From: Rhynochetos jubatus | Taxonomy: Eukaryota > Chordata > Aves > Eurypygiformes > Rhynochetidae | DNA: 64,000 nt | Direction: 5' to 3' | Assembly: GCA_027574665.1 (NCBI GenBank) | Contig: CM050672.1 | Coordinates: 8,168,001-8,232,000 of the forward strand | Shown here: positions 2,138 to 5,100 of the stretch, in pieces | Layout: each line of letters opens with the position of its first letter | How positions within the stretch are numbered: the stretch's first letter is position 1 | Position numbers and translations under genes: made by a program | Notes under the pieces: generated by a model | The model's input: only the letters and a program-made list of their open reading frames with translations | Told to the model about the DNA's origin: nothing | Databases searched by the model: none

Positions 2138-5100
2138 ATTCCTCCTCGTCTTCAGCTGCCTGGTGCTGTCCGTGTTCTCCACCATCCAGGAGCACCAGAA
2201 ACTGGCCAACCAGTGCCTCTTCATCCTGGTAAGTGGGGAGTGGGGCAGACTCCCCCTCCCTGAGTTACACCCTGAGAGACAAGTACACCCCCAGCACAGG
2301 GACAGGCTGGGGACGGACCGGGAACAGCCCTGGGGAGAAGGATTTGGGGTGCTGGGGGCGAGGAGCTGGCCAGGAGCCGGCCGTGTGCGCTGGAGCCCAG
2401 AAACCAACCGGATCCTGGGCTGGATCCAGAGCAGCGTGGCCAGGGGGGTGAGGGAGGGGATTCTGCCCCTCTGCTCCGCTCTGGGGAGACCCCCCCTGCA
2501 GTTCTGCTCCAGCTCTGGGCCCCCAACAGCAGGAGGACACGGAGCTGTTGGAGCGAGGCCAGAGGAGGCCACGGGGATGCTCCGAGGGCTGGAGCCCCTC
2601 TGCCCTGGGGACAGGCTGGGGGAGTTGGGGGGTTCAGCCTGGAGAAGGGAAGCTCCAGGGAGACCTCAGAGCCCCTTCCAGTGCCTGGGGGGCTACAAGG
2701 AAGCTTGGGGGGACTTTTCCCAAGGGCAGGGAGTGACAGGACAAGGGGTGACGGGTTTAAAGGGAAAGAGGGAGATGGAGATGGGCCATCAGGAAGGAAT
2801 TCTTCCCGCAGAGGGTGGGGGGCATTGGGACAGGTTGCCCAGAGAAGCTGTGGGTGCCCCATCCCTGGGAGTGTCCAAGGCCAGGCTGGATGAGGCTGGG
2901 AGCACCCTGGGCTATGGAAGGTGTCCCTGCCCATGGCAGGGGGTGGCACTGGGTGGGCTTTAAGGTCCCTTCCCACCCAAACCATTCCGTGATCCTGTGA
3001 CTCGGACAAGATCACAGCCAAAACCCCTGCGACCCCTTTCCCCAGTCCGGGTTTCACTGCGGCTCGTTGCCGTGGGTGGCAGCCTCTCGGCACATCCCGG
3101 GAGAGGGTGCAGGGTGGCCTCGCTGCCACGGGTGTCCCCCCATTCGGGATGGCCCACGCCTGCAGCCGGACCTCTGTGGCGCGGAGAGGCACAAACCGCT
3201 TGGGAAGGCAGGGCAGGAGGGGGCTAAAAAAGGCAACTTTCCCCCCAAACTGTCAGAAACAGCTGACACTGGAGTTTTTCCGAGGGACGGAGACTAAATT
3301 GGGAAGGTCCTTGTGACTTTCCCGCGCGTAAGCAGAACGGGGGCTTGTTTGTGCGGGAGGGAGGACAATGCTGACGGCGGAGGAACAGGACCCAGCTCGG
3401 TGCGAGCTTGGCACAGGGAGCCGAGCCGGGATGCCCAGACGGGCTGCGCTCCCGCCGCTCCCGTCTCACTCCCCCGGGGATGGCTCCAGCCGGGGCTGTG
3501 TCGGGGTGGTGGTCTGGGCGGGGGGTCCACCCTGCTGCCCCTTCCTCAACACCAGCATTTCCTTTAGCCCCTCCAAACCATCCACCGCGCTGAGCCGCCC
3601 CGACGCCCGCCCCTGCCCTCCCCACCTCACCCTCCTGTCCCCCCACCCCCGGCAGGAGTTCGTCATGATCGTGGTGTTCGGCATGGAGTACCTCATCCGC
3701 GTCTGGGCCGCCGGCTGCTGCTGCCGCTACCGGGGATGGAGGGGCCGCTTCCGCTTCGCCAGGAAACCCTTCTGCGTGATAGGTACCTGGGGAGGGGGGT
3801 TTGGGGGAGGTGGGGAGCAGTGTCACCTACGCCACGGCTGCCTCCGTCCCCCAACCTTGGCTGTCCCTTAGACTTCATCGTCTTCATCGCCTCGGTGGCC
3901 GTCATCGCCGCCGGCACCCAGGGCAACATCTTCGCCACCTCGGCGCTGCGCAGCATGCGCTTCCTGCAGATCCTGCGCATGGTCCGCATGGATCGCCGCG
4001 GCGGCACCTGGAAGCTGCTGGGATCCGTTGTCTATGCCCACAGCAAGGTGAGGGTGCGGGGTCCTCGCGTGGCCCCCGTCTAGTCCCCAACCTGACCCCC
4101 TCGCACCACACACACCCCCCTCCCCGGCCCCGTCAGGAGCTCATCACTGCCTGCTACATCGGGTTCCTGGAGTGGGGTCCCACTGTGGCCCCCCACAGCC
4201 ACCCCCAAGCCCCTTGCCCCCCCCTGACCCCATCAGGAGCTCATCACCACCTGGTACATTGGTCCCCTGGTGTGGGGTCCCACTGTGGCCCCCCACAGCC
4301 CCCCTCACCCCCCTGCCCCAGCAGGAGACCACCAATGTCTGCTACATTGGTTTCCTGGTGCGGGGTCTCAGTGTGGCCCCTCACAGCCCCTCTACAGCCC
4401 CTCTCACCCCCCCTGCCCCATCAGGAGCTCATCACCACCTGGTACATCGGCTTTCTGGTGCAGAGTCCCTGTGGGGCCCCCTACAACCCCCCCCAGAGCC
4501 CCTCTCACCCCCCTGCCCCATCAGGAGCTCATCACCGCCTGGTACATCGGCTTCCTGGTGCTCATCTTCGCCTCCTTCCTCGTGTACCTGGCCGAGAAGG
4601 ACGCCAACACCCAATTCGCCACCTACGCCGACTCCCTGTGGTGGGGCACGGTAAGCTCGGACAAGGGGACGAGGAGGGTGGGACGGGGCCGCGGGAGGGG
4701 GGAGCTCCCTCCAGGCCTCTCCCTGCTCTGCCCCCGGGCAGGTGACCCTCACCACCATCGGCTACGGGGACAAGACGCCGCAGACGTGGCTGGGACGGAT
4801 GCTGGCAGCCGGCTTCGCCCTCCTCGGCATCTCCTTCTTCGCGCTGCCCGCCGTGAGTAGGGCCTGGGGGGGTGTCCCTGCGCCTCCTGCGCCACAGAAA
4901 TCGGGGAGAGTGCCTGTCTCTCCCGGCTGGCACCCACAGACCCCGTCCCCTCCCGTCTCCAGGGGATCCTGGGCTCCGGCTTTGCCCTCAAAGTGCAGGA
5001 GCAGCATCGGCAGAAGCACTTTGAGAAGAGGCGGATGCCGGCTGCAAACCTCATCCAGGTAGCACAGGGCTGGTGTGAGACCCCTGTCCCTTCCCGGGGG

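Follow-up and report, generated by a model that had tools for sequence, protein, structure and literature searches.

Intron 4 of a Rhynochetos jubatus gene that is of the KCNQ4 type, judging from its protein matches, carries a tandem repeat array that grew from its boundary with exon 5, in which the 3' splice site and the first codons of exon 5 recur four times upstream of the real exon. This array is a case of exon stuttering, most likely a neutral one, and adds a clear new example to a kind already known. We propose that it is most probably a neutral by-product of a duplication at a microhomology followed by exchange between the units, with the last acceptor being used and the copies drifting. 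Below, the window designates the whole stretch of DNA that was analyzed (64,000 nucleotides), and positions are counted from its first base.

An array of decoy acceptors in a KCNQ4-type gene

The gene was identified from its exons. Exons 5 to 7, once joined (111 aa), gave KCNQ4 as the top human match (226.5 bits), with KCNQ5 a close second (219.3 bits). A later exon of the same gene matched the Pfam entry KCNQ_channel (2.8e-27), and the exon 4 region (3868 to 4047) matched Ion_trans right at the cut-off (25.1 versus 25 bits).

The original prediction was that four copies of the acceptor precede the real one, and alignment, TRF, and blastn-short all bore this out: sequence resembling the start of exon 5 follows a CAG at 4137, 4237, 4325, and 4425, in addition to the real start at 4525. 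The predicted period of 100 bp holds for three of the four steps, the remaining one being 88 nt (spacings of 100, 88, 100, and 100 nt). TRF called the array at 4118 to 4561, with a period of 100, 4.6 copies, 76% matches, and a score of 461. When the array is cut after the CTG of each copy, the units measure 122 (donor included), 100, 88, 100, and 100 nt (Table 1). The start of the exon is repeated as had been noticed, over 36 to 37 nt or 12 codons rather than about 10.

Table 1. Features of the KCNQ4-type gene and of the repeat array (window coordinates)
Feature	Position	Strand	Remarks
KCNQ4 exon 4 (S4 region)	3872..4047	+	From translation and Pfam Ion_trans; ends ...HSK, phase 0
Intron 4, 477 nt at present	4048..4524	+	Almost entirely repeat array; donor AAG/GTGAGG at 4048
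Repeat unit 1	4054..4169	+	Opens GTGCGGGG... (intron +7), ends at CTG of exon copy 1
Repeat unit 1, acceptor of presumed ancestral 89-nt intron	4136/4137	+	CTGAC branch-point-like site at -42
Repeat unit 2	4170..4269	+	Decoy acceptor before 4237
Repeat unit 3	4270..4357	+	Decoy acceptor before 4325; 88 nt long (shorter by 12 nt)
Repeat unit 4	4358..4457	+	Decoy acceptor before 4425; opens with GTGCGGGGTC
Repeat unit 5	4458..4557	+	Holds real acceptor and start of exon 5
KCNQ4 exon 5 (S5 onward), 126 nt	4525..4650	+	Donor ACG/GTAAGC

The copies are unequally preserved. In blastn-short comparisons of exon 5 with intron 4, copy 4 scored 58.0 bits over 37 nt, copy 1 44.1 bits over 34 nt, copy 2 38.2 bits over 23 nt, and copy 3 22.3 bits over 19 nt only; the matches begin at exon base 1 for copies 1, 2, and 4 and at base 19 for copy 3. 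Copy 4 is identical to the real site over the last 17 intron nucleotides and the first 12 exon nucleotides, and copy 3 is the most decayed, with 9 of its 36 exon-part positions changed. Of 1,000 dinucleotide shuffles of intron 4, a single one yielded an exon 5 match of at least 20 nt (16.4 bits), and exon 4, used as a control query against the same shuffles, yielded two (best, 24.3 bits). Since the match of copy 3 does not reach the 20 nt required in this control, that copy is supported by its position in the array and not by its own score.

The repeat unit and the presumed ancestral intron

The exon boundary was expected to be the duplicated element. The array is indeed seeded there, and the unit also takes in nearly the whole of a short intron. 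From the seventh base on, the start of intron 4 (GTGCGGGGTCCTCGCGTGGCCCCC) is similar to the openings of units 2 to 5 (GTGCGGGGTCTCAGTGTGGCCCCT in unit 4). Aligned with the consensus of units 2 to 5, the start of intron 4 scored 26, a value reached in 3 of 10,000 dinucleotide shuffles (highest, 29) and by none of 3,619 other 70-nt tiles of the window, for a stretch that was picked post hoc, the match having already been seen. Against single units, its score was reached by 5 of 2,000 shuffles for unit 4, 26 for unit 3, 109 for unit 5, and 146 for unit 2. Five other intron starts of the KCNQ4 gene served as controls: four scored 10 to 17, and that of intron 8 scored 16 to 22, its value of 22 against unit 5 being equal to intron 4's own. 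From these comparisons, homology to the intron start appears clear for units 3 and 4 and weak for units 2 and 5 taken singly. The unit most likely corresponds to almost the whole ancestral intron, from position +7 of the donor, plus 36 to 37 nt of exon 5.

The motif GGTGC is present at both limits of the unit, within TTCCTGGTGCTC in exon 5 and within GAGGGTGCGGGG in the intron. A junction at GGTGC predicts an exon/intron chimera, and this is how unit 4 opens (CTGGTGCGGGG). We infer that the duplication may have occurred through this microhomology; taken alone, a match of only 5 bases carries little weight in DNA this rich in GC. The distance from the donor to copy 1 suggests that the ancestral intron 4 had about 89 nt, a length similar to that of three of the four neighboring introns measured (88, 91, and 110 nt, the fourth having 250 nt).

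Splice sites and reading frames

As the unit limit falls inside the intron, the donor was not copied, and one donor faces five acceptors. Splice sites were scored with a simple matrix, which ignores context, and all splice site scores below come from it. The acceptors of copies 1 to 4 obtained 8.33, 8.33, 8.48, and 8.33, against 8.78 for the real site, in agreement with the suggestion that each copy is a plausible 3' splice site; by this measure, the five acceptors would be about equal in strength. Among the 21 AGs scored, three that do not belong to the boundary copies are also high (8.52 for the one before 4322, 7.48 for 4497, and 7.29 for 4398). Decoy 3 has an extra AG 3 nt upstream, forming a tandem CAGCAG (4319 to 4324) in which both AGs score about 8.5. 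Donor-like GTs within intron 4 do not exceed 5.78, while the real donors reach 10.73 and 8.93; 33-nt exon parts of copies 2 to 4 end with CTG/GTG, for which the donor-like scores are 5.78, 5.61, and 2.06. Branch-point-like sites are found at -42 for copy 1, -18 for copy 3, -42 and -19 for copy 4, and -18 for the real acceptor, while that of copy 2, at -10, is likely too near the acceptor to serve.

Use of the decoys had been predicted to add out-of-frame or proline-rich sequence. Reading through to the donor of exon 5, copies 1, 3, and 4 add 388, 200, and 100 nt, respectively, and shift the frame, with early stops in exon 7 (copies 1 and 4) or exon 6 (copy 3). Copy 2 differs: its 288 additional nucleotides (96 residues) are in frame, and no stop occurs up to exon 8.

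Divergence of the units

Pairwise identity among the units is 71 to 80%, with indels, and 20 to 29% of the aligned sites differ. The exon parts of the four copies show 20 changes relative to the real exon (4 × 36 positions), a count that includes changes common to several copies (15 are distinct), and 12 of the 20 are nonsynonymous. Compared to an expected share of 67 to 76%, this is no significant departure (P of 0.11 or 0.64, depending on the expectation). All 12 CAG bases of the four decoys are retained, an outcome that drift alone would give about 17% of the time and that thus carries little information on selection. Neither the share of substitutions nor the retention of the CAGs gave a sign of selection keeping or destroying the decoys. 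Among 10 informative sites, 30 of the 45 pairs are incompatible, as expected from exchange between copies, although some of these conflicts may stem from repeat mutation or from C runs being misaligned.

Comparison with exon stuttering, mirages, and intron gain

The array had been considered unusual, which is too strong a word. Exon (sequence) stuttering, described for chicken genes of the dot chromosomes (236 introns in 115 genes; Hron et al. 2026, PMC12954441), has the same structure, as do the mirages of lancelet genes (PMC3087553, PMC3902484). In the chicken set (PMC12954441), the exon part has a median of 36 bp, with a median of 4 detected copies and a median span of 1,751 bp, and 183 of 192 are length-variable. 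The duplicated edge takes in the neighboring splice site, which creates potential alternative transcripts, and the source lies at most 1 base from the exon border in more than 90% of the cases. Dot chromosomes are strongly preferred, only 10 of the 236 introns being on non-dot microchromosomes (PMC12954441).

The KCNQ4 array resembles these cases in having imperfect tandem copies of an exon edge and its splice site in the adjoining intron of a very GC-rich gene, with an exon part of about 36 nt and four extra copies. For copies 1, 2, and 4, the match begins with the first base of the exon, and the repeat extends into the intron, in keeping with the exon border rule (PMC12954441). The chicken screen retains blastn-short exon-to-intron matches of at least 20 nt and at least 42.1 bits (PMC12954441); two of the four copies pass it (58.0 and 44.1 bits), whereas copy 2 falls short in score (38.2 bits) and copy 3 in both score and length. 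The array differs by being short, about 0.5 kb versus the median of 1,751 bp. The pairwise divergence of 20 to 29% may be set beside the less than 20% from consensus given for one PHF8 intron (PMC12954441), although the two measures are not directly comparable. The term KCNQ does not appear in the main text of PMC12954441, whose gene list stands in its supplement. Among the literature matches listed (titles and abstract openings, most subscription papers lying outside the coverage), none describes an array in KCNQ4 intron 4.

Lancelet mirages occur in Adh3, the globins BflGb6 and BflGb9, PGBD5, and TnC, with units of 10 to 72 bp (Adh3), 150 to 160 bp (globins), and 60 and 108 bp (PGBD5), and they show haplotype and somatic length instability (PMC3087553, PMC3902484). 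Like them, the KCNQ4 array is a minisatellite-like tandem duplication spanning an intron-exon boundary, and the ends involved correspond, as the 3' end of the intron and the 5' part of exon 2 are copied in BflGb6. The differences are that mirages come from lancelet and not from a vertebrate and that the units of BflGb6, 81 to 100% identical (PMC3087553, PMC3902484), are more alike than those of the KCNQ4 array.

As in intron gain by tandem genomic duplication, the duplicated stretch includes splice signals. Potato RdRp is reportedly a case of such a gain. The corresponding model, that of Rogers, is named in PMC3087553. Here, in contrast, an existing intron grew, and the array is without a strong donor; a new spliced intron with duplicated donor and acceptor was not found, the donor-like sites of the array reaching at most 5.78 and exon 5 being uninterrupted.

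Other repeats and genes in the window

The GC content of the window is 69%. Its other genes are presumably TINAGL1, PEF1, COL16A1, and ADGRB2, a group that we take to lie on a non-dot microchromosome (chicken 23), and the window may be located likewise. When 10 segments of the window were compared to Pfam, those outside the KCNQ gene matched EF-hand and 7tm_2 above the cut-off, whereas their matches to Somatomedin_B and Laminin_G stayed below it; two of the 10 matched nothing.

For 30 putative coding segments, we searched up to 2 kb away for copies on the same strand and found them for exon 5 only. This set was obtained from 34 segments selected by composition score, from which 8 opposite-strand overlaps were removed, 2 were replaced by defined KCNQ4 exons, and to which 4 KCNQ4 exons were added; the coordinates are partly approximate and many real exons of the window are surely missing, so further cases are possible.

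The window contains 16 clusters of local direct repeats, some of which are single pairs of distant matches. A C-rich minisatellite at 20958 to 21452, with units of 28 to 151 nt, repeated CCCCCAGACC, and many CAG/A sites, stops a few bases short of the acceptor of an exon that we assume to belong to TINAGL1; a search over 2 kb revealed no copy of this probable exon segment. A repeat of the CCCAGCCCAT type, of about 0.9 kb (57738 to 58668), fills an intron of an adhesion-GPCR-like gene (minus strand) nearly to the exon near 58648. Two compact minisatellites, at 25487 to 25788 and 26292 to 26612 (units of 63 and 39 nt; TRF matches, 88% and 96%), lie near exons of a penta-EF-hand-like gene (minus strand) and have diverged less than the array in KCNQ4 (76%).

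Quadruplex motifs on the C strand cover 37% of the array versus 7.7% of the window, a level reached by 1.9% of the tiles. This is compatible with replication trouble, but C-richness alone gives such potential, and we did not rely on it.

Origin of the array and choice of the acceptor

We propose that a tandem duplication through GGTGC, the 5-base match present at both ends, copied the stretch from position +7 of an intron of about 89 nt to approximately nucleotide 37 of exon 5 and that later unequal exchange or conversion in this GC-rich DNA brought the number of units to five. With a breakpoint just within the intron, the acceptor, the pyrimidine tract, and the branch-point region would have been copied and the donor left out; exon 5 itself would have remained intact as the final unit and the copies would have drifted as intron sequence. 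The last acceptor probably takes most of the pre-mRNA by exon definition, as it is the sole one to open a normal-sized exon that has a strong donor a short way downstream, and stray use of a decoy would mostly give frameshifted RNA destined for decay. However, intron definition, in genes with short introns, may favor copy 1, which lies 89 nt from the donor with CTGAC at -42, and this would predict substantial mis-splicing.

Such mis-splicing could matter to the gene. If splicing leaked to copies 1, 3, and 4, the frameshifted products, with their stops in exons 6 and 7, would be degraded, KCNQ4 output would be lowered or tuned, and variants in copy number would alter expression. The similar scores of the five acceptors and the identity of copy 4 to the real site over 29 bases at the boundary speak for this reading, which we nevertheless hold to be unlikely: lancelet mirages are reported to leave regular splicing undisturbed, even though their authors allow for use of cryptic sites (PMC3087553, PMC3902484), and harmful leakage should favor the loss of decoy AGs, yet all four are kept, an argument of little weight given how readily drift retains them. 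A bolder version, in which the array acts as a splice rheostat, more units diverting more KCNQ4 transcript to decoys and copy 2 or the 33-nt copies occasionally adding S5 sequence, seems to us highly doubtful.

It is more improbable still that the exon parts serve as alternative, in-frame micro-exons of 33 nt (11 codons) or that copy 2 provides a 96-residue insert before S5. The CTG/GTG ends of copies 2 to 4 and the open, in-frame extension of copy 2 would permit it, but the candidate donors are weak next to the real ones, copy 1 has lost this GT, the nonsynonymous share gives no sign of purifying selection, and the channel would probably not function with a second S5 start or a proline-rich insert. 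We attach equally little credence to an assembly artifact in which one boundary was falsely repeated. Avian GC-rich genes of dot chromosomes are difficult to sequence and assemble (PMC12954441), but false copies would be near-identical, and the units have the differences and indels described above.

We thus favor the neutral by-product. If the rheostat were nonetheless true, the array would provide natural variation in a hair-cell or neuronal potassium current. If the gene is located off the dot chromosomes, the array adds to the minority of stuttering cases found there. It is a small and readable case that allows one to work out the limits of the unit, the length of the ancestral intron, and a possible microhomology. 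With one donor and five nearly equal acceptors, it also puts the spliceosome's choice among acceptors to a natural test.
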